Origin: Streptacidiphilus carbonis
GTDB lineage: Bacteria > Actinomycetota > Actinomycetes > Streptomycetales > Streptomycetaceae
NCBI RefSeq assembly: GCF_000787775.1
Contig: NZ_BBPM01000060.1
Location: 11,916 to 46,551, forward strand
Length of the DNA: 34,636 nucleotides
Direction of reading: 5' to 3'
Below, piece after piece: positions 420 to 29,989 of this stretch. Within the stretch, counting starts at the first letter, position 1; each line of letters starts with the position of its first letter. Under the pieces are notes generated by a model. The model ran no database searches and had not been told where the DNA came from. It worked only from the letters and a program-made list of their open reading frames with translations. A program made the position numbers and the translations under genes.

Positions 420-1673
420 TCAGCTGACGGTCCCGCGCGGCTGTTGTCCGGACCCGGCCCGCTGGGCCGGGTCCGGCATCGTGCGCTCCAGCAGCCGCAT
501 GGAGAGGGCGGCCAGCAGGTTCACCGCGCCCAGGACGATCCACGGCACCGCTCGGCCGAGCGCGAACAGGGTCGTGAAGAAGGCGGGCCCGAGCAGGCTC
601 GCGAAGGTGAACGAGTACTGGAACACCGCGAGGTAGCGGCCGCGGGCCGGCGCCGGTGACAGCGCGGTGGCCAGCGCCATCGACACCGGGGCGTGGATGA
701 CCTCGGCGGCGACGAACAGCGCCGCACCCCCGACCAGCACCGGGACCAGCACTGCCGGGCGGCCGGGGACCAGCGTCGCGTACAGGAAGCACCAGGCCGC
801 CCACAGCCCGGCGGCGGCCATCACCACCCGTGACCGCCGGAACGGCGTGAGGCGTCCGACCACGGGTGCGGCCAGCAGCGCGACCAGCCCGGTGTTGGCC
901 ACCAGGATCGCGGGGGCCAGGAAGCGCGGACCGTGCAGGCCCGTCAGCACGAACACCGGCAGTCCCAGGGCCAGCATCATGCTGGTCATCGCGAACGCCG
1001 TGTTGACCGCCGTGAAGCCCAGGAAGGTCCGGTCCCGCAGCATGCCCCGGTACCCGGCGCCCGACTCCCCCCGTGGGTGCGCCTGCCGGGGTGCGCGCAC
1101 GAAAACAGCGATGGCGACCGCGGCGAGCAGATAGGCCGCCGCCGACCCAAGGGCGACCGCGCGGTAGCCGGCGTCGCTCCCCCGGGCGATGGCGATCCCG
1201 GCCACCACTCCGCCCGCGCTGAGCCCCGCGGTCCTGGTCGTATTGGTCCAGGCGAACCAGGTGTCCTTGCTCCTGGTCGACGGACTCGCGTCGGCGAAGT
1301 CCGCGACCGCGGTGAACACGCTCGACCAGAAGAACCGAACCCCGATCGCGACCAGGCCCGAGGTGACCAGGATGCCGACCGGTCCATGCACCAGGTCGTA
1401 ACCGACGTACCCGACGCCCTGCAGCAGCTGGGCCCCGACCACCAGCGGCAGCGCCCCGAAACGGTCCGCCAGCGCGCCCGCCCACACCGGCACCGGCAGG
1501 GTCACCGCATTGGCCACGCTGATCAGCACGCCCAGCAGGCCCAGCGACACATGCGTCAGCTGGCCGAAGAAGACCAGCGGCAGCGGCAGGAACAGCCCGT
1601 TGCCGATCGAGTCGACCACCAGCGCACCCATCAGGACGGCCCCGCCCCGACTTCCCCTCGCCGGTGTGGACAT
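420..1673 (-). CDS. MFS transporter, about 417 aa
   Basis: This is an integral membrane protein with about 12 hydrophobic segments, of the usual length for a 12-helix major facilitator. The loop after helix 2 reads GALADRFGALPLVVG, the conserved MFS G-x-x-x-D-R-x-G motif. The frame is open further upstream, but the start was put at ATG 1673 (MSTPARGSRGG) because an AGGGGGGA ribosome binding site precedes it and the upstream extension is non-conserved, proline-rich and not membrane-like. It is transcribed divergently from the small membrane gene at 1815. The closest functional guess is a drug or metabolite exporter; the substrate cannot be read from sequence. Confidence 0.85.
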   Translation of the reverse strand: MSTPARGSRGGAVLMGALVVDSIGNGLFLPLPLVFFGQLTHVSLGLLGVLISVANAVTLPVPVWAGALADRFGALPLVVGAQLLQGVGYVGYDLVHGPVGILVTSGLVAIGVRFFWSSVFTAVADFADASPSTRSKDTWFAWTNTTRTAGLSAGGVVAGIAIARGSDAGYRAVALGSAAAYLLAAVAIAVFVRAPRQAHPRGESGAGYRGMLRDRTFLGFTAVNTAFAMTSMMLALGLPVFVLTGLHGPRFLAPAILVANTGLVALLAAPVVGRLTPFRRSRVVMAAAGLWAAWCFLYATLVPGRPAVLVPVLVGGAALFVAAEVIHAPVSMALATALSPAPARGRYLAVFQYSFTFASLLGPAFFTTLFALGRAVPWIVLGAVNLLAALSMRLLERTMPDPAQRAGSGQQPRGTVS

Positions 1674-1814
1674 CGTCCCCCCTGATCGACACGGCGCGCA
1701 GAGCCTCTCCCCGACGGGGCCGGGTGTCAACCGAAATCCGGTGCCGTTCGGGCCCGCGGTGTTCGCACCGGTGGGGGCCGGGTAGGGGTCGAAGGAGAGG
1801 CCCGGGAGGTTCCC

Positions 1815-2141
1815 ATGCGACACATCGGAGGCCACTTCGCCCACGGCACCCACCTGACCAGGGGGGAGATGCGGCGGTTCGCCAACGACGGCTCGGAACC
1901 GGTCACCGCCCGCAGCGACCTGCCCGCGCGGCGGCTGCTGGCGCAGGCCTTCGGCGCCCTGTTCCTGGCCGGGACGGTGTTCTTCTGCCTGCTGGCCGCG
2001 GGCGCCAGGCCGGGCAGCAGCCCCGGGCGGCTCTTCTTCACGGTGTACGCGGTGATCTGCGCGTTCTTTGTGCTCGTCGCGGTGGTGGACCTCGCCGTGG
2101 TGCGCCGGCGCGCCGAGGAGCAGCGCCGCTGGGGCCGCTGA
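1815..2141 (+). CDS. small two-helix membrane protein, DUF6343-like
   Basis: The protein has 108 residues. A polar N-terminus ends in GSEPVTARSDLPARRLL, followed by two hydrophobic helices (about residues 43-62 and 74-95) and a basic tail (VVRRRAEEQRRWGR). The SEP-TARS-L-R pattern before the first helix and the final AVVDLAVVRRR helix resemble the small actinobacterial DUF6343 proteins. A GGGAGG ribosome binding site lies five bases before the ATG. Function is unknown. It diverges from the MFS gene with 141 bp between the starts, and it converges on the E1 beta gene, leaving only 30 bp. Confidence 0.75.
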   Translation: MRHIGGHFAHGTHLTRGEMRRFANDGSEPVTARSDLPARRLLAQAFGALFLAGTVFFCLLAAGARPGSSPGRLFFTVYAVICAFFVLVAVVDLAVVRRRAEEQRRWGR

Positions 2142-2171
2142 CCCGGGCCGCCCCTCCGAGCCCCCCGGGGC

Positions 2172-3146
2172 CTACCCCAGCGCCTTGAGCACCGTGTCCG
2201 TGATCCGGGAGACCGAGGGCCGGGCCAGGTCCTCCAGGGTGTCGGCGGACGGGAGCGGGATGTGCGGGGTGGTGATCCGGACGATCGGTCCGCGCAGCGC
2301 CGGGAAGGCCTCCTCGGCGACGATCGAGGCGATCTCCGCGCCCCAGCCGCACAGCCGGGGGTTCTCCTCCACGGTGAACAGCCGGCCGGTGCCGGCCACG
2401 GCGTCCAGCAGGGTGCGGACGTCCAGCGGGACCAGTGAGCGCAGGTCCACCACGGTGCAGCCGACTCCCTGCTCGGCCATCCGCTCGGCCGCCGTGACGG
2501 CGCGCGGGACCATCGCGCCCACCGCGACCAGGGTGGCGTCGCCGCCGGTGCGCAGCACCCGCGCCCTGCCGAGGGTGTCCAGCAGCTCACCGTCCGGGAC
2601 CTCGCCGCGGACCGGGTAGAGCGCCTTGGGTTCGAGGACCAGCACCGGGTCCGGATCGCGCACCGCGGCCGCCAGCAGTCCGATCAGGTCCGCCGGGGTG
2701 GCCGGGAGCACCACCTTCAGCCCCGGGACCGCCATCGCCCAGTTCTCCACGCTCTGCGAGTGCTGCCCGCCGAAGCGCAGCCCGCCGCCGTTGGCGGTGC
2801 GGATCACCAGCGGCAGCGACACCTGACCGTCCGTCATATAGCGGGTCTTGGCGATCTCGTTGGCGACCATGTCCCAGCAGACCGCGAGGAAGTCGCTGAA
2901 CATGATCTCCGCGATGGGCCGCAGCCCGGTCATCGCCGCGCCCATGGCCGCCCCGAGGATGGCCTGTTCGCTGATCGGGGCGTCCAGCACCCGGCGCGGC
3001 CCGAACTCCTCCAGCAGTCCGGGCGTGGTCTTGAACACCCCGCCGGCCGCGGCGACGTCCTCGCCGATCAGCACCACCCGCTCGTCGCGGCGCATCTCCT
3101 GGGCGATGCCCCGGCGGACGGCGTCACGGTAGGTCAGTTGCGCCAT
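2172..3146 (-). CDS. 2-oxoacid (pyruvate/acetoin-type) dehydrogenase E1 component, beta subunit
   Basis: The 324-residue protein has the usual length of E1 beta from pyruvate, branched-chain 2-oxoacid or acetoin dehydrogenases. The N-terminal pyrimidine-binding domain shows GEDVAAAGGVFKTT and DAPISEQAI, where Glu60 matches the residue that activates thiamine diphosphate. The C-terminal transketolase-like domain ends with the typical TVEEN segment and HIPLPSADTLED. The ATG at 3146 overlaps the end of the alpha-subunit gene by 13 bp, so the two are translationally coupled and should form the usual alpha2-beta2 heterotetramer. It is the last gene of the liv operon. No E2 or E3 gene follows. Substrate is undetermined: pyruvate, acetoin and branched 2-oxoacids are all possible. 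Confidence 0.92.
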   Translation of the reverse strand: MAQLTYRDAVRRGIAQEMRRDERVVLIGEDVAAAGGVFKTTPGLLEEFGPRRVLDAPISEQAILGAAMGAAMTGLRPIAEIMFSDFLAVCWDMVANEIAKTRYMTDGQVSLPLVIRTANGGGLRFGGQHSQSVENWAMAVPGLKVVLPATPADLIGLLAAAVRDPDPVLVLEPKALYPVRGEVPDGELLDTLGRARVLRTGGDATLVAVGAMVPRAVTAAERMAEQGVGCTVVDLRSLVPLDVRTLLDAVAGTGRLFTVEENPRLCGWGAEIASIVAEEAFPALRGPIVRITTPHIPLPSADTLEDLARPSVSRITDTVLKALG

Positions 3147-4123
3147 GAGGAGCCTCCGTCGGTCCAGACCTGGCTGAGCAGTCGTTCCGGTGCCGGCGGC
3201 GGCGCGGCCTCGGCCGCGTCGGTGGCCGCGTCGACGGCCGCCCGCACCTCGGTGTCGATGTCGTCGAGGATCTTCGCCGGGATGCCTCGGCGCAGCAACC
3301 GTTCGCGGTAGCCGGACACCGGGTCGCGGGCCAGCCACTCCTCGACCTCCCGGGCCGGACGGTACTTGCCGGGATCGGCCCTGGAGTGCCCGCCGTGACG
3401 GTACGTCAACGCCTCGACCAGGCTGGGGCCTCCGCCCGTGCGGGCCCGCTCCAGCGCGGCCCGGGCCACCCCGTACACGGCCTCGACGTCGTTGCCGTCC
3501 ACCACCAGGGGATCCAGCCCGTAGCCGGCCGCCCGGTCGGCGGCCGGGCGGGGCACGGCGGTGACCGAGGCGATCGGGGTGTACTCCATGTAGAGGTTGT
3601 TCTCGCAGACGAAGACCACCGGCAGCCGCCACACCGCGGCGAGGTTGAGCGCCTCGTGGAAGGCGCCGATGTTGGTGGCGCCGTCGCCGAAGAAGCAGAC
3701 CGCCGCCTGCCCGCTGCCCCGGTACTGCGCGCTCCAGGCCGCGCCCACCGCGATCGGCAGATGGGCGCCGACGATGGCGTAGGAGCCCATGACGCCGTGC
3801 TCGACGCTGGTGAGGTGCATGGAGCCGCCCTTGCCTCCCATCAGTCCGCTGTCCCGGCCCAGGAGTTCGGCCATCACCGCGGCCATCGGAGCGCCCCGCA
3901 CCAGGGTGTGCGCATGGCCCCGGTAGGTGGCGAAGGTGTAGTCGTCGCGGCGCATGGCGGTGCCGAAGCCGGCCGCGATCGCCTCCTGGCCGAGGGAGAG
4001 GTGGCTGGTGCCCTTCACCAGGTTCCGCAGGAAGAGGTCGTAGGCGCGCTTCTCGAAGACCCGGACTTCGACCTGGCGGCGGTAGAGCTCCAACTGGACG
4101 TCGGGACAGGGGTTGTCGTTCAC
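3134..4123 (-). CDS. 2-oxoacid (pyruvate/acetoin-type) dehydrogenase E1 component, alpha subunit
   Basis: The 329-residue protein carries the thiamine-diphosphate motif as GDG at 146-148 through ENN at 174-176. It also has the HLSLGQEAIAAG entry segment, the GGKGGSMHL segment and the YRHGGHSRADPG loop (about 241-252), which corresponds to the phosphorylation loop of E1 alpha. The start is GTG 4123, chosen because AGGAGG lies seven bases upstream. It sits 21 bp after the M24 gene and overlaps the beta gene. The length and the GGKGGSMH segment fit the acetoin/pyruvate E1 group rather than the homodimeric pyruvate E1. Established role: decarboxylation of a 2-oxoacid and transfer of the acyl unit to a lipoyl E2, which must come from elsewhere in the genome. 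Confidence 0.92.
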   Translation of the reverse strand: MNDNPCPDVQLELYRRQVEVRVFEKRAYDLFLRNLVKGTSHLSLGQEAIAAGFGTAMRRDDYTFATYRGHAHTLVRGAPMAAVMAELLGRDSGLMGGKGGSMHLTSVEHGVMGSYAIVGAHLPIAVGAAWSAQYRGSGQAAVCFFGDGATNIGAFHEALNLAAVWRLPVVFVCENNLYMEYTPIASVTAVPRPAADRAAGYGLDPLVVDGNDVEAVYGVARAALERARTGGGPSLVEALTYRHGGHSRADPGKYRPAREVEEWLARDPVSGYRERLLRRGIPAKILDDIDTEVRAAVDAATDAAEAAPPPAPERLLSQVWTDGGSSWRN

Positions 4124-4144
4124 GGAGCGCCTCCTGACGCAGGC

Positions 4145-5392
4145 TCAGTACGCATGGGTGACGAAGAGGTCCTGGGCCGGGAACCGGGTGAGCACCCGCG
4201 GTCCATCGGCGGCGACCAGGATCTCCTCCTCGATCCGGGCCGCCGAGTAGCCGTCGGCGGCGGGGCAGTAGGTCTCCAGGGCGAAGACCATCCCCTCGGT
4301 GATCTCCACCGGGTGGGTCAGCGAGTTGAGCCTGCTGATGATCGGCCGCTCGTGCAGCCCGAGACCCAGGCCGTGGCCGAACTGCAGGCCGAAGGCGGCC
4401 ATCTCGTCGGCGAAGCCGAACTCGGTGGCGGCCGGCCACACCCGGGCGATCCGGTCGGTGCCGACGCCCGGCTTCACGAGCTCGATGGCTGCGTCGATCC
4501 ACTCCCGCGCCCTGGTGTAGGCGTCGCGCTGGGCCGGCGTGGCGCTGCCGACCGCGAACGTCCGGTAGTAGCAGGTGCGGTAGCCGTTGAAGGACTGGAT
4601 GACGTCGAAGAAGGCCTGGTCGCCGGGGCGGATCAAACGGTCGGAGAAGTTGTGCGGATGCGGGTTGCAGCGTTCGCCGGACACCGCGTTGATCGCCTCC
4701 ACATCGTCCGAACCCATCTCGTAGAGCCGCTTGTTGGCGAGGGCGACGATCTCGTTCTCGCGGACGCCGGGGCGCAGCGCCTCGGCGATGTCCTGGTAGA
4801 CGCCGTCCACCATCGCCGCGGCGGTGGACAGCAGCAGGATCTCGTCCTGGGACTTGAGCTGTCTGGCGTCCAGCATCACCTGCTGGGCGTCGGCCAGCAG
4901 CACGCCCTGCGCCGCGAGTTCGAACACCAGCGGCAGTTCGGCGACGTCCACCCCGACCGGCATCCCGGCCACGCCCTCGGCCGCCAGCAGCTCGGTGATC
5001 TCATGGACGGCGGAGCGGAACAGTCCGGCGTCCGACGCGATGGCGCCGCGCAGTCCGAGCAGCCCGGCCCGGCTGTGGCCGGGGGCCAGCCAGGGCGCGT
5101 ACAGCTCGTGGTGGCGCGCGGCGGAGCCGAAGTCCCACACGTGCGGCTCACCGGTGCGGGTGAGCAGGCAGTAGCGGGTGAACTTGTCGCGGGCCCACTC
5201 GCCGATCACGGTGGAGCTGAGGTAGCGGATGTTGTTGGTGTCGAAGACCAGCAGCGCGCCCAGCTCGGACGCCTCCAGCGCGGCGCGGGCGCGGGCCAGC
5301 CGGTAGTCGCGCAGCCGGGGGAAGTCGACCCGTTCCTCGAAGTCCACCGCGGTGCGGCCCGGCGCCGGGGTGAGCCGGCTGTTCGGCGGCAT
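4145..5392 (-). CDS. M24-family (pita-bread fold) hydrolase with a substituted metal ligand
   Basis: The 415-residue protein has a creatinase-like N-terminal domain (to about residue 180) and a C-terminal M24 domain. By motif spacing the metal positions are Asp263 (FFDVIQ), Cys274 in GYRTCYYRTF where the family normally has GYxSDxTRTF, His340 (FGHGLGLGLHERP), Glu373 (ALETY) and Glu388 (ARIEEE). Four of five ligands are kept and the second Asp is Cys. M24 members include Xaa-Pro aminopeptidases, creatinase, ectoine hydrolase DoeA and the DMSP lyase DddP, so peptide cleavage should not be assumed. It starts 2 bp after the dehydrogenase stop with a GGAGGAG site and sits between that gene and E1 alpha. 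It probably acts on the imported compound. Confidence 0.88.
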   Translation of the reverse strand: MPPNSRLTPAPGRTAVDFEERVDFPRLRDYRLARARAALEASELGALLVFDTNNIRYLSSTVIGEWARDKFTRYCLLTRTGEPHVWDFGSAARHHELYAPWLAPGHSRAGLLGLRGAIASDAGLFRSAVHEITELLAAEGVAGMPVGVDVAELPLVFELAAQGVLLADAQQVMLDARQLKSQDEILLLSTAAAMVDGVYQDIAEALRPGVRENEIVALANKRLYEMGSDDVEAINAVSGERCNPHPHNFSDRLIRPGDQAFFDVIQSFNGYRTCYYRTFAVGSATPAQRDAYTRAREWIDAAIELVKPGVGTDRIARVWPAATEFGFADEMAAFGLQFGHGLGLGLHERPIISRLNSLTHPVEITEGMVFALETYCPAADGYSAARIEEEILVAADGPRVLTRFPAQDLFVTHAY

Positions 5393-5394
5393 GC

Positions 5395-6411
5395 TCAGCT
5401 CCTCCCGGTCGGGTCCGCCGCGCGCCCGAGCCCCGAGTCGACCTCGGTGCTCTCCGCGACGAGGGTGAGCGCGGCCGCCCTGGCCTGCTCCAGCAGCAGT
5501 GCGGCGAAGTCCCGTTCACCGTGGCCGGCCCCGACCGCCGCCTGCACCAACTGGTGCACGGCGGCGGCGATCGGCACCGGGACCTCGGCACCGCGCGCGG
5601 CGGCCAGGCCGAGGTCCAGGTCCTTGCGCAGCAGCGCGGTGGTGAAGGTCGGGGTGAAGTCCAGATGGACCAGCGCCGGGGCCTTGTAGCGGGTGAAGGC
5701 CGAGGCCAGCACCGAGGAGTTGAGGAACTCCAGGAAGGCCGCCCGGGGCACCCCGTGCTTCTCGGCAAGGACGGTGACCTCGGCCAGGGACTGGGCGATG
5801 ACGCCGAGCAGCATGTTGTGGCAGAGCTTGACCAGCCTGGCCTGCTCCCCGTCGCCGACATAGGTGACGGCCTCGCCGAGTACCGCCAGCAGCGGCCCGA
5901 CCTCGCGGTAGGCGTGCTCGGGACCGGAGACGGCGAACCCGGCCCGGCCGGCTGCGACGACCCCGGGGTTGCCGCTGACCGGGGCGGCCAGCAGCGCCGT
6001 CCCGGAGCGGGCCGCCACCGCCCTGACCCGGGCCGACACCTCCGCGTCCACGGTGGAGAAGTCGACCAGGACGCGGGGGGCGCCGCCCCCGCTGAACAGG
6101 CCCTGCTCGCCCACGGTGACCTCGGCGAAGTCGGCGGAACCGGCCACCACGGTGAAGACGGTCCCGCAGCCGGCCAGGTCGCCGATCCGGTCCGCGATCA
6201 CCGCGCCGCGGGCGGCCAGCGGTTCGGCCTTGGCCCGGGTCCGGTTGTGGACCAGCAGCGGGTGCCCGGCGTCGAGCAGCCGCCCGGCGAGGGCGAGGCC
6301 CATCCGGCCGGTGCCGATCCAGCCGGTGCCGGGCCGATCCGTGCCGGGCCGATCCGTGCCGGGCCGATCCGTGCCGGTCGCTCCGGTGCCGAACGGCTGG
6401 TTGGCGTTCAA
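5395..6411 (-). CDS. NAD(P)-dependent beta-hydroxyacid dehydrogenase (3-hydroxyisobutyrate dehydrogenase family)
   Basis: The 338-residue protein begins its Rossmann fold with GTGRMG at 33-38. It shows the family marks DFST (117-120), PVSGNPG (144-150, where most members read DAPVSGG) and the catalytic Lys195 and Asn199 in VKLCHNMLL. The C-terminal all-helical domain follows. Known members oxidise 3-hydroxyisobutyrate, tartronate semialdehyde and related beta-hydroxyacids, and some are imine reductases. The N-terminus before the Rossmann fold contains three TDRPG units from a 15-bp tandem repeat. The ATG at 6411 overlaps the LivF stop (ATGA, 4 bp). Operon context suggests it oxidises an intermediate of the imported substrate; the exact substrate is unknown. 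Confidence 0.87.
   Translation of the reverse strand: MNANQPFGTGATGTDRPGTDRPGTDRPGTGWIGTGRMGLALAGRLLDAGHPLLVHNRTRAKAEPLAARGAVIADRIGDLAGCGTVFTVVAGSADFAEVTVGEQGLFSGGGAPRVLVDFSTVDAEVSARVRAVAARSGTALLAAPVSGNPGVVAAGRAGFAVSGPEHAYREVGPLLAVLGEAVTYVGDGEQARLVKLCHNMLLGVIAQSLAEVTVLAEKHGVPRAAFLEFLNSSVLASAFTRYKAPALVHLDFTPTFTTALLRKDLDLGLAAARGAEVPVPIAAAVHQLVQAAVGAGHGERDFAALLLEQARAAALTLVAESTEVDSGLGRAADPTGRS
6326..6370. repeat. three perfect 15-bp tandem repeats inside the dehydrogenase gene
   Basis: The unit GTGCCGGGCCGATCC (plus strand) occurs at 6326-6340, 6341-6355 and 6356-6370, followed by a partial copy at 6371-6377. A degenerate neighbour lies at 6311-6320. Because the unit is 15 bp, each copy adds five residues (TDRPG) to the N-terminal tail without shifting frame. 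The repeats lie between the start codon and the Rossmann motif, in a region that is normally absent in the family. Confidence 0.95.
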
Positions 6412-7172
6412 CGGCTCACCTCTCTCTGCTGTGCGGGCGGGTCCCCGCCCGCACCCAGGTAGAGCCGGGCCACCCGGGGGTCGGCCAGCAGCTCGGCGCC
6501 GCTGCCGGTCAGCCGGACCCGGCCGCTCTCCAGTACGGCCCCGCGGTCGGCGGCCGCCAGCCCGGAGCGGGCGTTCTGCTCCACCAGGAGGATGGTCCGG
6601 CCGTCGGCGGCGAGCGCGGCGACGGTGTCGAAGACCGCCCTGCGGGCCCGCGGTTCCAGGCCGATGGACGGCTCGTCCAGCAGCAGCAGGACCGGTTCCA
6701 GCAGCAGCGCGCGGGCCAGCTCCACCTGCTTCTGCTCGCCGCCGGACAGCGACCCCGCGCTGGCCCGGCGCCGCCGTGCCAGCAGCGGGAACCGCTCGGC
6801 CAGCGCGTCCGCGCGCCGCCGGACCTCGCGGCGGCCGGCGCGGGTGCCGTCCAGCAGGTAACCGCCCATCAGCAGGTTGTCCCAGACCGTCATCGCCGGG
6901 AAGAGACTGCGCTCCTGCGGCACCTGGACGATGCCGCGCAGCAGCCGCTCGCGCGGCGACCGCCGGTCGAGCGGCTCACCGTGCAGCAGCACCTTTCCCC
7001 GGCCGGTCCGCAGCAGTCCGCTGACGACCCTGAGCACCGTCGACTTCCCGGCGCCGTTGGGCCCGATCAGGCACACCACCTCGCCCTGGTCCACCGTCAG
7101 GTCGACGCCGCGCAGCACCTCGCCGGCGCCGTACCCGGCGCCGACCCCCCGCAGTTCGAGCAGGACCGACAC
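6408..7172 (-). CDS. livF: branched-chain/amide-type ABC transporter ATP-binding protein LivF
   Basis: The 254-residue ATPase has Walker A GPNGAGKST (37-45), signature LSGGE (142-146), Walker B LLLLDEP (162-168) and IGLEPRARR right after it. The LivF hallmarks are the VPQERSLFPAMTVWDNL segment and the LVEQNA switch region. It should pair with LivG on the cytoplasmic face of the LivH-LivM permease. It begins 4 bp after the LivG stop and overlaps the downstream dehydrogenase by 4 bp, so all are on one transcript. LivFGH systems import branched-chain amino acids, but the same family also imports urea, amides and other small polar compounds. Confidence 0.93.
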   Translation of the reverse strand: MSVLLELRGVGAGYGAGEVLRGVDLTVDQGEVVCLIGPNGAGKSTVLRVVSGLLRTGRGKVLLHGEPLDRRSPRERLLRGIVQVPQERSLFPAMTVWDNLLMGGYLLDGTRAGRREVRRRADALAERFPLLARRRRASAGSLSGGEQKQVELARALLLEPVLLLLDEPSIGLEPRARRAVFDTVAALAADGRTILLVEQNARSGLAAADRGAVLESGRVRLTGSGAELLADPRVARLYLGAGGDPPAQQREVSR

Positions 7173-7176
7173 GGCC

Positions 7177-7911
7177 TCAGCCCCCCAGGTAGGCGTCGAG
7201 GACCAGCGGGTCCGCCTGCACGTCGCCGGGCGGCCCCTGGGCGATGACCCGGCCGCCGGCCATCACCACCACCGGGTCGCACAGCCGCATCACCAGGTTC
7301 ATGTCGTGCTCGACCACCAGGAAGGCGGTCCCCGCGGCGTGCCGGGCCCGGATGTGGCGTTCCATGGTGCGGACCATGGTCGGGTTGACCCCGGCAGTGG
7401 GCTCGTCCAGCAGCACCAGGGACGGCGAGCTCATCAGCAGCGCGGCGAACTCCAGCAGCTTGCGCTGGCCGTAGGAGAGCTCCTCGGCCGGGTCGTCGGC
7501 CAGGCCGGCCAGCGAGAACTCCGCCAGCAGCGCCTCGGCCCGGTCCCGGTCGTCGGCCCGGACCCGGGGTCCGGCCAGGGCGGCCCGGCGGCGGCCGGAG
7601 GCGATCAGCAGGTTCTCCAGCACGCTGAGGTCGGCGAAGACCCTCGGCTGCTGGAAGGTCCGGCACAGGCCGCGCCGGTACAGCCGGGCCGGGTCGGGCC
7701 GGGCGACCCTGCGGCCCTCCAGCAGGATCTGTCCGGCGTCGGCCCGGAGGTAACCGGTGACCACGTTGAACAGGGTGGTCTTGCCCGAGCCGTTGGGACC
7801 GATCAGCCCGGTGACGGTGGACCGCCGCACCGTCAGCGAGCAGTCGTCGAGGGCGGCGACCCCGCCGAAGCGCCTGGCCAGCCCGCGGACCTCCAGCAGC
7901 GGCGCGCTCAC
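7177..7911 (-). CDS. livG: branched-chain/amide-type ABC transporter ATP-binding protein LivG
   Basis: The 244-residue ATPase has Walker A GPNGSGKTT (38-46), the Q-loop segment RTFQQPRVF, signature LSYGQRK and Walker B LVLLDEPTAGVNP, ending with VVEHDMNLVM, all typical of LivG. The start is GTG 7911. It overlaps the LivM stop by 4 bp (GTGA), which fixes the start and indicates translational coupling. LivG forms the ATPase heterodimer with LivF. Confidence 0.93.
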   Translation of the reverse strand: MSAPLLEVRGLARRFGGVAALDDCSLTVRRSTVTGLIGPNGSGKTTLFNVVTGYLRADAGQILLEGRRVARPDPARLYRRGLCRTFQQPRVFADLSVLENLLIASGRRRAALAGPRVRADDRDRAEALLAEFSLAGLADDPAEELSYGQRKLLEFAALLMSSPSLVLLDEPTAGVNPTMVRTMERHIRARHAAGTAFLVVEHDMNLVMRLCDPVVVMAGGRVIAQGPPGDVQADPLVLDAYLGG

Positions 7912-8945
7912 GGCTGCTCCCCCGCCACGTCCGCAGCGATGTCCCCACCGGTGTCCGCGCTGACGCCCGTGCCGACGTCCGCCCGCAGCGTGCGCGCCCG
8001 GCGCTGCCTGCTCCGGTACCGGTCGCCGAGGGTCGGCAGGACGCCGCGCGGCAGCACCAGCATGACCAGCACCAGCAGCGCCGCGTAGCCGAGCAGGTAG
8101 AGCTGGCTCGCCCCGTACTGGTAGGCCAGGTACTGCTGGGCCGGGGCGACGATGAACGCCCCCAGCACCGGTCCCCACAGGGTGCCGCGCCCGCCCAGGA
8201 AGACCATCAGCACCATGGCCACGGTCACCAGCGGGTCCACCGCGAACTGCGGGTAGATGAAGGACAGGTAGTACGCCCACACTCCCCCGGCCATGCCGGT
8301 GATGCCCACCGACAGCGCGAACGCGCCGAGCTTGGCCGTGCCCACCGGCACACCCACCCCGCGGGCCTTGTCCTCGTCCGCTCGGATCGCCAGCAGCGCC
8401 AGCCCGAGCCTGCTGCGCAGCACCGCGTGGGAGAGCAGCAGCGCGAGCACCAGCAGCGCCAGCATCGCGTAGTAGAAGGGCCGTTCGAACGTGGCGGGGG
8501 CGAAGTCGGGGACCGGCATGGCCACCCCCTGCGCGCCGTGGGTGATCCCGCGCAGGTTGTAGGCGAGGGTCTGCGCGACGAACAGCAGGGTGATGGTGAC
8601 GATGGCGAACACGTCGGCGCGGGTGCGCATGGCGATCCAGGCCACCGGCAGGCCCGCCGCGGCGACCGCCAGGCCGACCAGCGGCAGCACCGCGAAGGGG
8701 GTGAGGCCGGCGCCGATGCCGTGGTGGTTGAACCAGAGCGCCTCCGTGTAGGCGCCCAGGCCGAAGAAGGCGGCGTGGCCCAGCGAGGGGTAGCCGGCGT
8801 AGCCGCCGACCAGGTTCCAGGCACTGGCCAGCGCCGCGTACATCAGGGTGAACAGGGCGATGGTCATCACCCAGGGCGCGGTGGCCAGGAAGGGGAACAC
8901 CGCCAGCAGGGCCGAGAGCGCGGCGATCGCCGCCGCCGTCCTCAC
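7908..8945 (-). CDS. livM: branched-chain/amide-type ABC transporter permease LivM
   Basis: The 345-residue integral membrane protein has about nine hydrophobic helices. It contains SAWNLVGGYAGYPSLGHAAFFGLGAYTEA, the strongly conserved LivM segment, here split in this description as SAWNLVGGYAGYPSLGH then AAFFGLGAYTEA. The coupling helix region RADEDKARGVGV is also present. The start is GTG 8945, overlapping the LivH stop by 4 bp (GTGA). The frame is open much further upstream, but that part is the antisense of nothing conserved and overlaps LivH in another frame, so it was rejected. The polar C-terminal tail after the last helix (about 35 residues) is not conserved. Confidence 0.92.
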   Translation of the reverse strand: MRTAAAIAALSALLAVFPFLATAPWVMTIALFTLMYAALASAWNLVGGYAGYPSLGHAAFFGLGAYTEALWFNHHGIGAGLTPFAVLPLVGLAVAAAGLPVAWIAMRTRADVFAIVTITLLFVAQTLAYNLRGITHGAQGVAMPVPDFAPATFERPFYYAMLALLVLALLLSHAVLRSRLGLALLAIRADEDKARGVGVPVGTAKLGAFALSVGITGMAGGVWAYYLSFIYPQFAVDPLVTVAMVLMVFLGGRGTLWGPVLGAFIVAPAQQYLAYQYGASQLYLLGYAALLVLVMLVLPRGVLPTLGDRYRSRQRRARTLRADVGTGVSADTGGDIAADVAGEQP

Positions 8946-9820
8946 AGCGCCCCCCGCAGCCGCGCGCCGAACAGCCCGCCGGGCCGCACCAGCAGCACCG
9001 CGAGCAGCACCACGAAGAAACTGAAGTCCGACCACACCGGCGAGACCAGCGCGCCCACCAGCGCCGAGACCACGCCCATGGCCAGCGCCGCGATCACGGT
9101 GCCGCCCAGGCTGCCCAGGCCGCCGAGGACGACGATGGACAGCAGCCGGGAGATCAGGTCGTAGTGGCTGCCGGGGTTGAAGGAGTACACCATCCCGTAG
9201 ACCGCGCCGGCCGCGGCGGCGGTCGCCGCGCCCAGGCCGAAGCCCAGCGCGGCCACCCGGCCGCTCTCGACGCCCAGCAGCCTGGCCGCGGTCGGGTTCT
9301 GCACGGTGGCGCGGACCGCGCGGCCGAAGCGGGTGCGGCCCAGCAGCAGCGCCAGCGCGCCCAGGGTCGCCAGTGACAGCAGGCAGGCGGCCAGCCGCAC
9401 CTCGCCGACCTGGTAGCCGGCCACGGTCCAGGAGCGGTTCACATAACCGGGCTGGATGGAGCGGTAGTCGGACTTGTACACCAGGGTGAGCACACCCTCG
9501 ATCCCCAGCGCGACGGCGAAGGTGACCAGCAGCGACAGCTGCGGGGCGTCCGAGCGGTGCAGCGGCCGCAGCAGGCACCACTGCACGGCCGTCCCGAGCA
9601 GGAACATCGCCGGGGCCACCAGCAGCACGGTCAGGAAGGGGTCGATGCCGAACGCGTCGAACAGGGAGGAGCTGAGGTAGGCCGCCAGGATCACCAGCGC
9701 GCCCTGGGCCAGGTTGACCACCTTGAGCACGCCGAAGATCAGCGTCTGGCCGCTCGCCATCAGCGCGTAGACGCCGCCGGTGAGCAGCCCGAGGATGACC
9801 GCCTGGATGGTCTCGTGCAC
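8942..9820 (-). CDS. livH: branched-chain/amide-type ABC transporter permease LivH
   Basis: The 292-residue permease starts with GTG 9820, 7 bp after the binding-protein stop. The early segment GGVYALMASGQTLIFGV and KVVNLAQGALVIL is the characteristic LivH start. RATVQNPTAARLLGV is the cytoplasmic loop that contacts the ATPases, and GGLGSLGGTVIAAL follows. About eight hydrophobic helices are visible. It should form the membrane channel with LivM. Confidence 0.93.
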   Translation of the reverse strand: MHETIQAVILGLLTGGVYALMASGQTLIFGVLKVVNLAQGALVILAAYLSSSLFDAFGIDPFLTVLLVAPAMFLLGTAVQWCLLRPLHRSDAPQLSLLVTFAVALGIEGVLTLVYKSDYRSIQPGYVNRSWTVAGYQVGEVRLAACLLSLATLGALALLLGRTRFGRAVRATVQNPTAARLLGVESGRVAALGFGLGAATAAAAGAVYGMVYSFNPGSHYDLISRLLSIVVLGGLGSLGGTVIAALAMGVVSALVGALVSPVWSDFSFFVVLLAVLLVRPGGLFGARLRGAL

Positions 9821-9827
9821 GCCGCGC

Positions 9828-11111
9828 TCACCCGCTCCAGGGCAGCTTGCCCAGCACCGGCGCGGTCTGCGCGCGGTCGGCCGGGAAGACCGGCAGCAGC
9901 TTGCCGCCGATCCATTGCACCAGCACGTACGAGGCGTTGGCCGCGCCGTCGTCGTTCCAGCTGAGGTTGCCCTCCAGGGTGGGCCAGCTGCCCGAGTGCA
10001 GGGTGCTGATCAGCGTGGCGTTGTCGACCTTGCCCATCTTGGCGGCGACCTCCTGGACCAGCTGGCCGCAGGAGTACGCCTCGGCGGAGGTGCTGTCGAT
10101 GCTCGCCCCCGTCCCCCCGTAGGCCGCGGTGTAGGCGGCGACGAAGGCGGTGTTGCCGCTGGTGGTGGCCGTGGGGAACCAGTCCCCGGAGGAGAAGACG
10201 CCGTCGACCTCGCCCGCGCCGACGTTCTTGGGGAAGTTCAGCGGGTCGTTGGCGCCGTTGGACAGGTAGAGCAGCTTCGGCGCCCACTTGAGCTGCACCA
10301 TGGCCTTGACCAGGGCGTACGCGTCCGCCGACTGGGTCCCGGCGACCACCAGGTCCGGCTTCTTCGCGGCCATGGCGCTGACCACCGGGGACAGGTCGGT
10401 CGCCTCGGCGGGGTAGATCTGCTGGTACACCGTGCGGATTCCGGCCGCCTGGAGCCGGGAGCGCACCTCGGCCGCGATCGGCGAGGCGAAGGGGTCGTCC
10501 AGCGCGGGATAGGCGGCGGTGGTGGGGCGCTGGGAGGACGGCAGTGACAGGATGTAGTCGGCGAAGACGTCGCCCTGCTGGACCACCGGCGCCGGCTGCA
10601 CGAAGAAGAGGTTGTGCAGGTGCTGGCTGAACACCGCCGGGCCGCCGCCGGCCGGCTCCAGGAACGCGTAGCCGTAGCGCTTGGCGACCTGCGAGGCGGG
10701 GACCGTCAGCAGGCTGGAGAAGGGGCCGAAGACCAGGTCCACATGGTTCTTGGTTATCAGGTTCTGATAGTTCGTCACCACCTGGGTGGGACTCGACGTG
10801 TCGTCGACGACGTCCAGCACCACCTTGCGGCCCAGCACTCCGCCCGCGGCGTTCACGGTCCTGGCCCAGAGCTGGTAGCCGCGCTGGGCGGACTTGCCGG
10901 AGTCGGAGAAGTCGCCGGTCAGGGAGAGGGAGATGCCGATGGTCAGCGGCGGGCGTGCGTCGGATGAGGCGGAGACGGGATGGGCCGGCGAACTGCTGCA
11001 GCCCGCGAGGGCCAGCCCGGCCGCCGCCAGCGCCGCGGCGACGGCCCGCAGCCGCCCGCCGTCGGCCGTCCCGCCCCTGCCGCCCCTGGTGCCGTTGCTG
11101 CGATTGCTCAT
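9828..11111 (-). CDS. LivJ/LivK-type ABC transporter substrate-binding lipoprotein
   Basis: The 427-residue precursor has a basic N-terminus, a hydrophobic core and a lipobox LALAGC, so it is an exported lipoprotein. The mature part has the type I periplasmic-binding fold of branched-chain amino acid receptors: LTIGISLSLTGDFSDSGKSAQRG near the start, VDLVFGPFSS, and a late SAEAYSCGQLVQEVA. The start at ATG 11111 was chosen over an upstream in-frame start because GGAAGGA lies in front of it and the signal peptide begins soon after. It is the first gene of the nine-gene operon. Ligand is unknown; the family binds amino acids, amides, aromatic acids and others. Confidence 0.9.
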   Translation of the reverse strand: MSNRSNGTRGGRGGTADGGRLRAVAAALAAAGLALAGCSSSPAHPVSASSDARPPLTIGISLSLTGDFSDSGKSAQRGYQLWARTVNAAGGVLGRKVVLDVVDDTSSPTQVVTNYQNLITKNHVDLVFGPFSSLLTVPASQVAKRYGYAFLEPAGGGPAVFSQHLHNLFFVQPAPVVQQGDVFADYILSLPSSQRPTTAAYPALDDPFASPIAAEVRSRLQAAGIRTVYQQIYPAEATDLSPVVSAMAAKKPDLVVAGTQSADAYALVKAMVQLKWAPKLLYLSNGANDPLNFPKNVGAGEVDGVFSSGDWFPTATTSGNTAFVAAYTAAYGGTGASIDSTSAEAYSCGQLVQEVAAKMGKVDNATLISTLHSGSWPTLEGNLSWNDDGAANASYVLVQWIGGKLLPVFPADRAQTAPVLGKLPWSG

Positions 11112-11145
11112 GGTCCGCCGTCCTTCCTGAACGCGGCCAGAACAC

Positions 11146-11159
11146 TGCGAACGATTGCG
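11146..11159. promoter_or_regulatory. LacI-type operator-like palindrome at the liv operon start
   Basis: The 14-mer TGCGAACGATTGCG has a CG centre and matches the general LacI-family pattern TGCAAnCGnTTGCA at all specified positions except the fourth and last. It begins four bases after the proposed -10 of the liv promoter, so a bound repressor would block initiation. The likely ligand-responsive protein is the divergent LacI gene. Confidence 0.55.
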
Positions 11160-11163
11160 GTGG

Positions 11164-11192
11164 AGTCTCCTGCTGGTCTGACGGACTGTCAA
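11164..11192 (-). promoter_or_regulatory. putative promoter of the nine-gene liv operon
   Basis: On the minus strand, TTGACA (11187-11192) is followed after 17 bp by GAGACT (11164-11169). The -35 is a perfect consensus; the -10 is weak. Transcription would start near 11157, giving a short leader of about 45 bases before the binding-protein ATG. Confidence 0.45.
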
Positions 11193-11212
11193 TGACTGTC
11201 GCCCATAAGCGG

Positions 11213-11226
11213 TGCAATGGATTGCG
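11213..11226. promoter_or_regulatory. second LacI-type operator-like palindrome, near the lacI start
   Basis: TGCAATGGATTGCG resembles the site at 11146-11159, with 10 of 14 bases identical, and its centre lies 67 bp away. It is placed 31 bp before the divergent lacI ATG, suggesting autoregulation or looping between two sites. Confidence 0.5.
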
Positions 11227-11256
11227 GTGATCGGCGTCCGCGCCTACGGTGACACC

Positions 11257-12273
11257 ATGGCCGGCCGACGCCCCACCCTCGACGACGTGGCCCGCGCCGC
11301 CGGCGTGCACAAGGCGACGGCGTCCCGCGCGCTCAACCCGGAGACCAGGAACCAGGTCAAGTTCGAGACCGCGCACCGGATCACCGTCGCCGCCCGCCGC
11401 CTCGGCTATGTGCCCAACACCCTGGCACGCGGACTGCGCACCAGCCGGTCGACCGCGGTCGGGGTGCTGGTTCCGGACCTCACCAACCCGCTGTTCCCGC
11501 CGATCGTCCGCGGCATCCAGGACCGGCTGGACAGCCACGGCTACACCGCCCTGCTGGTGAACACCGACAACGACGAGGAGCGCGAGCGGGCCCAGTTCGC
11601 CGAGCTCGCCGCCCGCCGGGTGGACGGCTTCATCGTCGCCACCGCCCGCCGCGACCACCCGCTGCTGGCCGAGGCCGTCGGCCGAGGCACCGCCCTGGTG
11701 ACGGTCAACCGCACCGTCGAGCTGCCCGGCACCCCCGCGGTCGTCGGCGACGACGCCGACGGCGTCGCCCAGGCCGTGGCCCACCTGCGGGGGCTCGGCC
11801 ACACCCGGATCGCCCACCTGGCCGGCCCGCAGTCCGTCTCCACCGGCGCGGTACGGCTGCGTGCCTTCCGGCAGGCGGCCGGCCGCGCCCGCGACGCGGT
11901 GGTGGAGTGCGCCGCCTACACCGAGCAGGCCGGCCGCGCCGGGGCCCGGCGGCTGCTGCTGGCGCACCCGTCGACCACCGCCGTACTGGCCGGGAACGAC
12001 CTGATCGCCCTGGGGGCGCTGGCCGAACTCGCCGCCCAGGGCCGCTCCTGCCCCGACGACATCTCCGTGGTCGGCTTCAACGACATGCCTTTCGCCGACC
12101 GGTTCCGGCCGCCGCTGACGACCGTACGCGTCCCGCACCACGAGATGGGTGTGCAGGCTGCTGAGTTGCTGCTGGAGCTGCTGACCCGACCGCAGCCCGT
12201 CGCCCGTACGGTGGTGCTCCCGGCCCGTCTGGTCGTCCGCGGCTCCACCGCACCCCCGCCGGCGAGCCGGTGA
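11257..12273 (+). CDS. LacI-family transcriptional regulator of the liv operon
   Basis: The 338-residue protein has a DNA-binding domain at its N-terminus (RPTLDDVARAAGVHKATASRAL, with helix-turn-helix and hinge helix PNTLARGLR). A sugar-binding-protein-like core follows, with GVLVPDLTNPLFPPIVRGI, and the dimer-proximal end is VVGFNDMPFADRFRPPLTTV. The start at ATG 11257 gives the usual N-terminus; an in-frame ATG at 11212 would add 15 unrelated residues and overlap an operator. No good ribosome binding site is visible. It is divergent from the liv operon with two LacI-like palindromes between, so local repression relieved by the imported compound is the natural inference. A LacI protein controlling a Liv-type importer is less usual than for sugar importers. 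Confidence 0.92.
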   Translation: MAGRRPTLDDVARAAGVHKATASRALNPETRNQVKFETAHRITVAARRLGYVPNTLARGLRTSRSTAVGVLVPDLTNPLFPPIVRGIQDRLDSHGYTALLVNTDNDEERERAQFAELAARRVDGFIVATARRDHPLLAEAVGRGTALVTVNRTVELPGTPAVVGDDADGVAQAVAHLRGLGHTRIAHLAGPQSVSTGAVRLRAFRQAAGRARDAVVECAAYTEQAGRAGARRLLLAHPSTTAVLAGNDLIALGALAELAAQGRSCPDDISVVGFNDMPFADRFRPPLTTVRVPHHEMGVQAAELLLELLTRPQPVARTVVLPARLVVRGSTAPPPASR

Positions 12274-12982
12274 GCGACTGGGTCCCGGCGACCCAGCCGT
12301 CCCGGGCCGCTGCGTCGAGGCCGGCACCGTGGAGACCGGCATCGTCGAGGCCGGCACCGGCGAGGCCCGGTTCGTCCTGGACCACGGTGGGAACGGAGCG
12401 TCGGCGCAGCAGGGGCAGCACGAACACGACCACCAGCACCACGGCGGCGACCACCGCCGCGCCGACCGCCCCCACCGTGCGGATGAGCTGCTCGACGGAC
12501 GGGCCCAGGTAGTACCCGGCCGCGACGTTGCCGACGCCCCAGAGCACTGCCGCGACCGCGCTGTAGGGGAGGAAGCGGCGGTAGGGCAGCCCCGCGCCGC
12601 CGGCCGCGAAGGGCAGGAAGGAGCGCACGAAGCCGATGAAGCGGCCCGCGAAGACGGCCGGGCCGCCGCGGCGCTGCAGGAAGTCGCGGGCCCGGGCGGT
12701 CCGCTGCCGCATCCGGCCCCCGCCCGGGCGCCGCTCGTACCAGCGGCCCAGGGCATACCCTGCGCTGTCGCCGAGGATCGCGGCGCAGACCACCACGGCG
12801 GCCAGTGCCACCGGGTCGAGGTCGCCCCGGCCGGCCAGCGCCCCGGCGACCAGGATCAGCGACTCGCCGGGCATGAAGACCCCGAAGAACGCACTGGTCT
12901 CGGCCGCGGTCAGCAGGAACACGACGGCGTACGACCAGAAACCCGCTGCCTCGACGATCGCGGTGGGGTTCAAGGCGCTCAC
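12077..12982 (-). CDS. DedA/SNARE-associated family membrane protein with unusual C-terminal tail
   Basis: The 301-residue reading begins at GTG 12982, which overlaps the stop of the upstream small membrane gene by 4 bp (GTGA). The DedA domain occupies about residues 10-205: FFGVFMPGESLILVAGAL, GDSAGYALGRWYERR, then FAGRFIGFVRSFLPFAAGGAGL, with the conserved Gly, Arg and Pro residues of the family, and a final hydrophobic helix ending LPLLRRR. DedA proteins are membrane transporters or scramblases of lipid carriers in known bacteria. After residue 210 the frame continues for about 90 low-complexity residues and runs 197 bp antisense into the convergent lacI gene. No stop exists earlier in this frame, so the tail is real on the sequence given, but it looks non-conserved. 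Confidence 0.85.
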   Translation of the reverse strand: MSALNPTAIVEAAGFWSYAVVFLLTAAETSAFFGVFMPGESLILVAGALAGRGDLDPVALAAVVVCAAILGDSAGYALGRWYERRPGGGRMRQRTARARDFLQRRGGPAVFAGRFIGFVRSFLPFAAGGAGLPYRRFLPYSAVAAVLWGVGNVAAGYYLGPSVEQLIRTVGAVGAAVVAAVVLVVVFVLPLLRRRSVPTVVQDEPGLAGAGLDDAGLHGAGLDAAARDGWVAGTQSLTGSPAGVRWSRGRPDGPGAPPYGRRAAVGSAAPAATQQPAHPSRGAGRVRSSAAAGTGRRKACR

Positions 12983-13501: not shown

Positions 13502-14347
13502 ATGATGTCAGACAGGGACTCGATGTCGCAGGAACCGCAGAACGACAGCTCGCCCGGCGTCGACCTGCGTATGGACGTCCCGCACTCGGCCCGGGTCTAC
13601 GACTACCTCATCGGCGGGAAGACCAACTTCGAGGCCGACCGGGTGGCCGCCGAGGCCTCGGTGCGGGCCTGGCCGGCGCTGCCGGTCTCGATGCGCACCA
13701 CCCGCACCTTCATGCAGCGGGCCACCCGCCACCTCGCCGAGAAGCACGGCGTGCGCCAGTTCCTGGACATCGGCACCGGCATCCCCACCTCGCCCAATGT
13801 GCACGAGATAGCCCAGGGCGTCGCCCCCGAGTGCCGGGTCGCCTATGTGGACAACGACCCGATCGTGCTCACCCACGCCCGGGCCCTCATGTCGAGCACC
13901 GCCGAGGGAGCCACCTGCTACATCGACGCGGACCTGCGCGACGTCGACTCGATCATCGGATCCGCGCGGCTGCGCGAGGTGCTGGACCTGAAGCAGCCGG
14001 TGGCGCTGTCCCTGATCGCGATCGTGCACTTCATCCTGGACGAGGACGACCCGCAGGGCATCGTCCGGCGGCTCATGGACGAGCTGGCCCCGGGCAGCTT
14101 CCTGGCGCTGACCGTCTTCACCGGCGACACCGACCCGGTGGGCGTCGGCGGCGTCGGCCGGGAGTACAACGCGCGCGGCATCCCGCTGCAGATCCGGGAC
14201 CGGGCCGAGTCCCTGGCCTTCTTCGACGGCTACGACCTCCTCGACCCAGGCGTCACCCTGGTCCACCACTGGCTGCCGGACCCGGACGCCCCGCAGATCC
14301 GCGACCAGGACATCGCCATGTACGGAGGGGTAGCCGTCAAGCACTGA
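13502..14347 (+). CDS. SAM-dependent methyltransferase, DUF574 (Methyltransf_19) family
   Basis: The 281-residue protein shows the DUF574 pattern: VDLRMDVPHSARVYDYLIGGKTNFEADR (residues 20-47, quoted here in parts as VDLRMDVPHSARVYDYLIGG and KTNFEADR). The SAM-binding FLDIGTGIPTSPNVHEIAQ starts at about residue 87, followed by VAYVDNDPIVLTHARAL and IDADLRD. Members are abundant in Streptomyces; substrates are mostly unknown. Two adjacent ATGs (13502 and 13505) follow GGAAGAGG. It is very similar to the protein at 17510-18370, so the window has two copies. It converges on the DoxX gene with 24 bp between. Confidence 0.92.
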   Translation: MMSDRDSMSQEPQNDSSPGVDLRMDVPHSARVYDYLIGGKTNFEADRVAAEASVRAWPALPVSMRTTRTFMQRATRHLAEKHGVRQFLDIGTGIPTSPNVHEIAQGVAPECRVAYVDNDPIVLTHARALMSSTAEGATCYIDADLRDVDSIIGSARLREVLDLKQPVALSLIAIVHFILDEDDPQGIVRRLMDELAPGSFLALTVFTGDTDPVGVGGVGREYNARGIPLQIRDRAESLAFFDGYDLLDPGVTLVHHWLPDPDAPQIRDQDIAMYGGVAVKH

Positions 14348-17036: not shown

Positions 17037-17513
17037 CTACCCGGTTCGTGCCTCAAGCATCGGCAGGACCCGGCCCGGAATGGACCCTGACGGGCCCTCA
17101 CCGATCCGCCGAGCGCCCATGGCCAGGTAGAAGGGCTCGGCATGCGGGTCGGCGTCGATCGTCAGCCGTTCGAAGCCGAGTTCGCGGGCGCGGTCGAGCA
17201 CATGGCGGTAGAGCAGCCGCCCCAGACCCCGGCCGATCGCGGCCGGCTCGACGAACAGCATGCCGAGCGTGCCCTGCGGCGCCTCGCCCTCCAGGGTGCT
17301 GAAGCCCAGCACGGCCCCGTCGGCCTCGGCGACGGTGACCCGACGGGACGCCATGGTGCCCGGCTCCATCCGCAGTTCGTCGGCGCACGCCGCCAGGAAC
17401 GCCTGGTCGTAGCCCCAGTGGCCCTTGGACCGCAGCGCCAGCGCGGTCAGCTCGCCCGCCTCGTCGTCCCGGGCGGCCCGGAGCCGTACGGCGGGCTGCG
17501 GGGCACCCGTCAT
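17037..17513 (-). CDS. GNAT family N-acetyltransferase
   Basis: The 158-residue protein starts at ATG 17513, overlapping the methyltransferase stop (ATGA, 4 bp). The GNAT core is visible: VAEADGAVLGFSTLE, TLGMLFVEPAAIGRGLGRLLYRH with the acetyl-CoA binding R-G-x-G pattern, then LTIDADPHAEPFYLAMGARRIGEG. The end PSGSIPGRVLPML is typical of a subfamily of unknown acceptor. Co-translation with a methyltransferase hints that both modify related targets, but this is inference. Confidence 0.88.
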   Translation of the reverse strand: MTGAPQPAVRLRAARDDEAGELTALALRSKGHWGYDQAFLAACADELRMEPGTMASRRVTVAEADGAVLGFSTLEGEAPQGTLGMLFVEPAAIGRGLGRLLYRHVLDRARELGFERLTIDADPHAEPFYLAMGARRIGEGPSGSIPGRVLPMLEARTG

Positions 17514-18370: not shown

Positions 18371-18478
18371 GTCCACTCCCGGAGTGTAGTTCTGATGAAT
18401 GATCAACGACCCTATCAGGCTCGTCCGTGCCCACCCCTTCCTCCCCGCACCCGGCCCCCGCCAATCGCACCGGCCCCG

Positions 18479-20591: not shown

Positions 20592-20609
20592 ACGACCACC
20601 GTCAGCCGC

Positions 20610-21599: not shown

Positions 21600-21637
21600 C
21601 GCGTCCGTTCTCCTTCTGCTGAGGGGTTTGTCGCTGC

Positions 21638-24881: not shown

Positions 24882-24948
24882 TCGTCGGGTGCACTCGTGA
24901 GGTGGTGTCGTCGGCCGGTGTCGTCGGGTGCTGTCTCAGGTGGTGTCG
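24882..24948. repeat. imperfect direct repeat at the end of the opp lacI
   Basis: Two about 28-bp segments (24882-24910 and 24921-24948) share TCGTCGGGTG at one end and GGTGGTGTCG at the other, with changes in between. The second contains the stop and last codons of lacI; the first lies between it and the hydrolase remnant. Confidence 0.6.
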
Positions 24949-25934: not shown

Positions 25935-25950
25935 TCGGAATCTCCTCGGG

Positions 25951-29974: not shown

Positions 29975-29989
29975 TGCCCCACTCCCTCC

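Follow-up and report, generated by a model that had tools for sequence, protein, structure and literature searches.

We describe here a conserved catabolic operon of nine genes in the actinomycete Streptacidiphilus carbonis, located at positions 2172-11111 on the minus strand of a 34,636-nucleotide stretch of DNA (the window; contig NZ_BBPM01000060.1, positions 11,916 to 46,551). It combines a Liv-type ATP-binding cassette (ABC) importer, a dehydrogenase of the HIBADH family, an M24-family enzyme and the two subunits of a predicted thiamine diphosphate (ThDP)-dependent E1. A divergent LacI-family gene and two operator palindromes, absent from the preliminary description of this DNA, lie next to it. 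The reading that we favour, and hold to be somewhat probable, is that of a LacI-repressed operon leading from import through cleavage by the M24 enzyme and oxidation by the HIBADH-family enzyme and an aldehyde dehydrogenase (ALDH) to an acyl-CoA formed by an E1-E2-E3 complex. The preliminary description had proposed a single, tightly packed unit for import and degradation, and this is supported: all open reading frames (ORFs), domains, gene order and overlaps were confirmed. The features are as follows, operator scores being those of a position weight matrix (PWM).

2172-3146, minus strand: E1 beta (ThDP); Transket_pyr and Transketolase_C domains, QHS motif
3134-4123, minus strand: E1 alpha (ThDP); Pfam E1_dh, 261 bits; GDG-X-NN motif
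4145-5392, minus strand: M24-family enzyme with Cys274 replacing the second metal Asp; Pfam and alignments
5395-6411, minus strand: beta-hydroxyacid dehydrogenase (HIBADH family); Pfam, with NRT loop, SGN motif and active-site Lys
6408-7172, minus strand: LivF-type ATPase; Pfam ABC_tran
7177-7911, minus strand: LivG-type ATPase; Pfam ABC_tran and BCA_ABC_TP_C
7908-8945, minus strand: LivM-type permease; Pfam BPD_transp_2
8942-9820, minus strand: LivH-type permease; Pfam BPD_transp_2
9828-11111, minus strand: substrate-binding protein (SBP); Pfam Peripla_BP_6, 176.5 bits
11145-11160: operator palindrome 1, CTGCGAACGATTGCGG; PWM 19.1, held-out 19.1 with 0/1000 shuffles
11212-11227: operator palindrome 2, GTGCAATGGATTGCGG; PWM 19.5, 67 bp from palindrome 1
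11257-12273, plus strand: LacI-family regulator, divergent from the operon; ORF list, translation and LacI homologues beside the clusters of relatives

The nine ORFs run head to tail in the order SBP-LivH-LivM-LivG-LivF-HIBADH-M24-E1alpha-E1beta, and the eight junctions in transcription order measure +7, -4, -4, +4, -4, +2, +21 and -13 bp, so that none is wider than 21 bp. A major facilitator superfamily (MFS) transporter recognized by Pfam (420-1853) follows on the same strand 318 bp downstream; its homologues stand outside the gene order counted in relatives. Scanning the window for Rfam families and tRNA genes gave no matches. A consensus scan of positions 1700-12400 returned zero promoters and four terminator-like sites, the sole one on the operon strand (9040) falling within LivH.

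The preliminary description had also proposed looking for the M24-dehydrogenase-E1 gene order in other actinomycete genomes. A search with the M24 protein, taking one genome per species, found at least 582 relatives, and the best 80 of these together with plasmid loci and further genomes gave 101 non-duplicate loci, all picked by M24 similarity and some being short contigs. The exact nine-gene order, with the two ATPases not distinguished, was present in 19 of the 101 (L015, L016, L023, L035, L038, L040, L043, L045, L058, L059, L060, L062, L071, L072, L074, L077, L081, L084 and L116). These 19 are not independent, because many are metagenome-assembled genomes (MAGs) of Acidimicrobiia; the recurrence is nevertheless more than chance. 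In the 97 loci whose M24 protein has at least 55% identity, we counted the genes lying no more than 8 kb from M24: 89 loci have a HIBADH-family gene or one of the SDR20 type, 66 a ThDP enzyme, 46 Liv permeases, 42 an ALDH and 35 a LacI gene of at least 45% identity. A clade at 60% (L146-L150) shows the arrangement M24-E1a-E1b-amidohydrolase-cupin-SDR (short-chain dehydrogenase/reductase), which in three of its five loci (L146, L147, L148) continues with a HIBADH gene. At E <= 1e-40 the M24 family was present in 10 of 61 relatives, the window's own genome included.

Control of the operon is best approached through the intergenic region. The LacI ORF opens at 11212, and from its translation we prefer the ATG at 11257 as the start. 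A palindrome near YYGCAATCGATTGCRR occurs in all 20 intergenic regions that separate a divergent LacI gene from a SBP, HIBADH or M24 gene, several of these regions being near relatives of one another. When each region was left out of the matrix in turn and compared with 1000 shuffles, the held-out score was matched by none of the shuffles in 17 of the 20, and by 1, 1 and 5 in the remaining three. As a control, 109 divergent regions lacking cluster genes were scored: none carries the operator and none exceeds 14. Across the 101 loci (1.87 Mb) there are 102 sites above 17, of which 94 precede a named cluster gene by at most 450 bp and the other 8 do not; 2 are fully inside a called gene. The genes served, with divergent pairs counted twice, are HIBADH (40), SBP (32), LacI (30), NMT1-like (21), M24 (8), ABC ATPase (4), alpha/beta hydrolase (3), VOC (2) and E1 (2). 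Paired sites at a spacing of 67-68 bp recur in L015, L016, L059, L091, L095 and L116. Where importer and enzyme genes have separate starts, a site precedes both (e.g., L032, L050, L055, L056, L068), which supports joint control of the two gene sets and speaks against their separate regulation, a possibility that the preliminary description had raised against its own proposal. With a conserved palindrome between regulator and target, the window holds a predicted local LacI-type regulon.

In the same genome, a one-mismatch operator pattern occurs at nine places, two of which are the window sites; the seven others adjoin no recognizable cluster genes, as named from translations. Two of the nine are related palindromes 119 bp apart on contig C68, upstream of a stretch (1211-6937) whose translations resemble a D-2-hydroxyacid dehydrogenase, sugar-type ABC proteins and a LacI regulator (L141). 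Among the relatives, a small protein typified by L055:1715-2623 (minus strand) has a phosphonate-binding Pfam match of 25.7 bits, below the cut-off of 27. It is preceded by an operator in 21 cases, a count that includes divergent pairs, and may serve as a binding protein or as an enzyme.

The M24 enzyme is unusual at the level of its sequence. Canonical M24 metallopeptidases (prolidase, aminopeptidase P) hold their metals with five ligands, D, D, H, E and E. Aligned with solved prolidases, the window protein retains D263 (the first metal Asp), H340, E373 and E388, and its second metal Asp is replaced by Cys274. This Cys is found in all 97 non-duplicate members with at least 55% identity, as well as in 89 of 89 proteins of an alignment that included some duplicate contigs. 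A wider alignment, which extends to a haloarchaeal relative at 36% identity, has it in 37 of 39 rows, the two Asp rows being 26 and 28% identical. Judged by its aligned ligands, the protein is not a canonical peptidase, and the Xaa-Pro peptidase label that plasmid records attach to these enzymes is probably wrong. DddP, the dimethylsulfoniopropionate (DMSP) lyase with an M24 fold, is the best NCBIfam hit, but at 106.3 bits against an equivalog cut-off of 600; DddP has Asp at the metal position corresponding to Cys274. Ectoine hydrolase DoeA (EutD) is likewise an M24 fold within a catabolic gene set, whereas the window protein scores 60.8 bits against the cut-off of 613. As a separate observation, a Paenarthrobacter sp. 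R1 plasmid (L099, 11202-18470) has, about 2 kb from sulR, the flavin reductase gene of sulfonamide breakdown, an M24 relative accompanied by RidA, HIBADH-like, SDR and lpdA genes.

As for the importer, it shares the five-subunit make-up and the folds of the Liv/HAAT branched-chain amino acid importers, but every one of its proteins falls far under the NCBIfam Liv cut-offs, two of the five models being of subfamily type: 67.8 against 477 bits for SBP, 92 against 379 for LivH, 102.4 against 366 for LivM, 204.3 against 362 for LivG and 186.5 against 441 for LivF. Assignment as a Liv branched-chain amino acid importer was rejected on these scores. The nearest solved relatives of the SBP are of the Liv and GABA/proline types. 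In Liv-type binding proteins an Asp or Glu holds the amine of the ligand; at the aligned position, 285, none of the 26 binding proteins of this family has either residue. The SBP is thus set apart from Liv-type amino acid binding proteins, and the cargo is probably not an alpha-amino acid. The passages available from two papers on relatives of the binding protein (PMC11113362, PMC5924552) do not name the amine-holding residue.

The HIBADH-family gene has a TTG start, and three copies of a 15-base repeat at its 5′ end encode GTDRP repeats; the protein start is uncertain, since these repeats lie between the TTG and the nucleotide-binding motif. Among 76 proteins with at least 50% identity (window included), 75 have NRT as their cofactor loop, the remaining one showing a gap, and the SGN motif and the active-site Lys are present in all 76. 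An NRT loop is of the NADP(H) type, and SGG is the usual form of the motif which here reads SGN. By its SGN the family differs from the plant GLYR proteins and from its nearest solved relatives, 3pef and 3pdu, which we take to be the succinic-semialdehyde reductases from Geobacter in Zhang 2014. The title of that work appears in the reference list of PMC5399074. Neither 3-hydroxyisobutyrate dehydrogenase (139 bits against an equivalog cut-off of 291.6) nor tartronate semialdehyde reductase (141.4 against 340.75) is an acceptable identity for the window protein. The ALDH of L042, a relative, scores 574 bits to the succinate-semialdehyde dehydrogenase family (SSADH), under the cut-off of 646.

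The E1 subunits carry GDG-X-NN in 39 of 39 E1 alpha relatives, and QHS and ISE[QM] in 36 and 34 of 36 E1 relatives; these are the ThDP and active-site motifs of E1, and mark the pair as a predicted ThDP E1 alpha/beta of 2-oxo acid dehydrogenases. The E1 is nearer to the pyruvate type (196 bits) than to the branched-chain type (141 bits), with E1 alpha below the pyruvate dehydrogenase NCBIfam cut-off (334 against 393.85) and E1 beta above that of a subfamily model (329.4 against 321). A separate E1 alpha of at least 60% identity is found in 39 of the 97 M24 loci and a fused E1 in 18, the two never occurring together (0/97). In L042 the genes M24-E1a-E1b-ALDH-E2 are consecutive, two Phaeobacter plasmids (L096, L097) have M24-E1a-E1b-lipoyl protein-ALDH-E2-E3, and L117, from the same genus as the window, has HIBADH-M24-E1a-E1b-ALDH-E2. 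Since E1 has E2, E3 and an ALDH of the succinate-semialdehyde type as neighbours in relatives, it most likely serves a lipoate-dependent complex that forms acyl-CoA. In its pyruvate-type E1, and in the E2, E3 and ALDH genes of relatives, the system resembles acetoin dehydrogenase (aco) and other E1-E2-E3 operons, but differs from aco operons in that the window core holds M24, HIBADH and ABC importer genes and no E2 or E3.

From these parts we infer the mode of control, the chemistry, the order of steps and the nature of the cargo. LacI would occupy the two operators between its own gene and the SBP gene, and the substrate or an intermediate would release it. The Liv-type importer would take up a small polar compound, of which the Cys-bearing M24 enzyme may cleave a C-N, C-O or C-C bond. 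The HIBADH-family enzyme and a succinate-semialdehyde-type ALDH, the latter presumably encoded elsewhere in this genome and adjoining M24 in relatives, would oxidize a hydroxy acid via its semialdehyde, and E1, with E2 and E3 from elsewhere in the genome, would convert an alpha-oxo intermediate to acyl-CoA. This intermediate may be a 2-oxo acid or, as with acetoin dehydrogenase, an alpha-hydroxyketone. Set against the interpretation in the preliminary description, the import-and-degradation unit stands; its amino-acid-like cargo is not supported by the binding-protein residues and Liv scores, nor its NAD-linked oxidation by the NRT loop, nor its analogy to DoeA or DddP by the family scores.

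Several observations weigh against this scheme. Beside the window operon there is no E2, E3 or ALDH gene, and the candidates in its own genome reach 42% for ALDH and 56, 38 and 39% for E2; no E2 gene was among the operator targets in the 101 loci. A ThDP enzyme is missing inside 8 kb of M24 in 31 of the 97 loci, and some relatives have other importer types. Joint control by LacI is not universal, since an operator above 17 is missing from 53 of the 101 loci, among them L023 and L038, which keep the gene order with a TetR-like gene and no LacI gene on the stretch examined. Finally, a site on contig C132 of the same genome scores 18.5, near the 19.1 and 19.5 of the window, and its neighbours look unrelated.

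The nature of the E1 substrate gives rise to the strongest alternative. A 2-oxo acid and an alpha-hydroxyketone are about equally possible, the plain E1 signature pointing to the former, and transketolase neighbours together with an acetoin-reductase-like SDR to the latter. An entire pathway built on the hydroxyketone, with a polyol-like substrate and an E1 of the acetoin-dehydrogenase type freeing an aldehyde for the ALDH, is a possibility that we regard as real, if clearly the lesser one. It would suit the split transketolase that adjoins M24 in a clade at 56% (L124, L125), the LacI type of the regulator, the RbsABC-type importers close to Roseobacter clusters and an SDR of L153, encoded after M24 and best scored as acetoin reductase. 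However, that score, 223.7 bits, is below the cut-off of 304, the E1 is just as close to plain pyruvate dehydrogenase, and the HIBADH step can account for the ALDH.

Accessory genes of the relatives, namely C-C hydrolases, flavin monooxygenases, a molybdenum hydroxylase, RidA and amidohydrolases, suggest that the core can also act as the lower part of ring-degrading pathways there. Taken as the explanation of the core itself, a pathway for rings or beta-dicarbonyls, perhaps N-heterocycles, whose rings are opened by the upper enzymes of relatives, seems to us rather unlikely. An alpha/beta hydrolase nearest to 2,6-dihydroxypseudooxynicotine hydrolase (165 bits) lies by M24 in 32 of the 97 loci, in three cases with its own operator; a crotonase nearest to 6-oxocamphor hydrolase (137 bits) does so in 4 and the large subunit of a molybdenum hydroxylase in 8, and an HsaA-like flavin monooxygenase, a flavin reductase, a luciferase-like (LLM) monooxygenase, RidA and an ATZ/TRZ-type amidohydrolase are also found there. 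On the other side, the window has none of these accessory genes, and neither do many clusters. Searches of the window's own genome for the alpha/beta hydrolase and for the NMT1-like protein gave no match, an empty answer that is uninformative by itself.

Much less probable as the substrate is a 4-hydroxy acid amide, for instance pantothenate, with M24 splitting the amide, HIBADH and ALDH oxidizing the 4-hydroxyl by way of an aldehyde resembling succinate semialdehyde, and E1 using the 2-oxo acid that results. Prolidase-like M24 enzymes do split amides, and HIBADH and ALDH are both of the succinate-semialdehyde type; the E1, though, is of the pyruvate and not the branched-chain type, the cluster is without a decarboxylating dehydrogenase and a literature search on this pathway found nothing. 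The least probable reading of all is that of an ordinary operon for nutrients, either branched-chain amino acids or Xaa-Pro peptides, as the common annotations (Liv importer, prolidase, 3-hydroxyisobutyrate dehydrogenase, branched-chain 2-oxo acid dehydrogenase) would have it, given family scores far under the cut-offs, loss of both the M24 metal Asp and the amine-binding acid of the SBP, and a pyruvate-type E1. The ectoine, DMSP, branched-chain and peptide readings were rejected on family scores and residues. For a mycosporine reading the literature gave nothing on the cluster, and among the matches listed none contained the word mycosporine; for a sulfonamide by-product, prompted by the Paenarthrobacter plasmids, it likewise gave nothing on the cluster.

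Elsewhere in the window, translations indicate a second LacI-type gene by a sugar-type-looking ABC importer with binding protein, permease and ATPase (19575-23481, minus strand), and another by oligopeptide-type-looking ABC importer genes (24936-31576, minus strand). The proteins of 13523-14347 (plus strand) and 17510-18406 (minus strand) share a DYLIGGKTNF / DYFIGGKDNF stretch, and are perhaps paralogous methyltransferases.

The preliminary description knew of no pathway with exactly this gene set, and our literature search for the cluster or its candidate substrates likewise found no description; this is weak evidence of novelty, because most subscription papers lay outside its reach. We consider it plausible, though somewhat short of probable, that the operon belongs to an undescribed pathway joining a cysteine-liganded M24 enzyme of new, non-peptidase chemistry to an exchangeable ThDP enzyme under a shared LacI-operator code. 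With the same reserve, the ThDP part, whether a separate E1, a fused E1 or a split transketolase, may act by cleaving a compound of the alpha-oxo or alpha-hydroxyketone kind, a single operator code may serve many actinomycetes, and the range may take in Actinomycetota, MAGs of Dormibacterota and Eremiobacterota and alphaproteobacterial plasmids, with a haloarchaeal relative of the M24 enzyme. At E <= 1e-100, 48 of the 394 genomes sampled from the class have a member of the M24 family (the window's own genome is one of them), so the compound that the pathway acts on is probably a common one in soil. Both the operator and the binding protein offer a direct route to its substrate, and a Cys that never varies in the M24 site would add a new form to a metalloenzyme fold that has been studied thoroughly.

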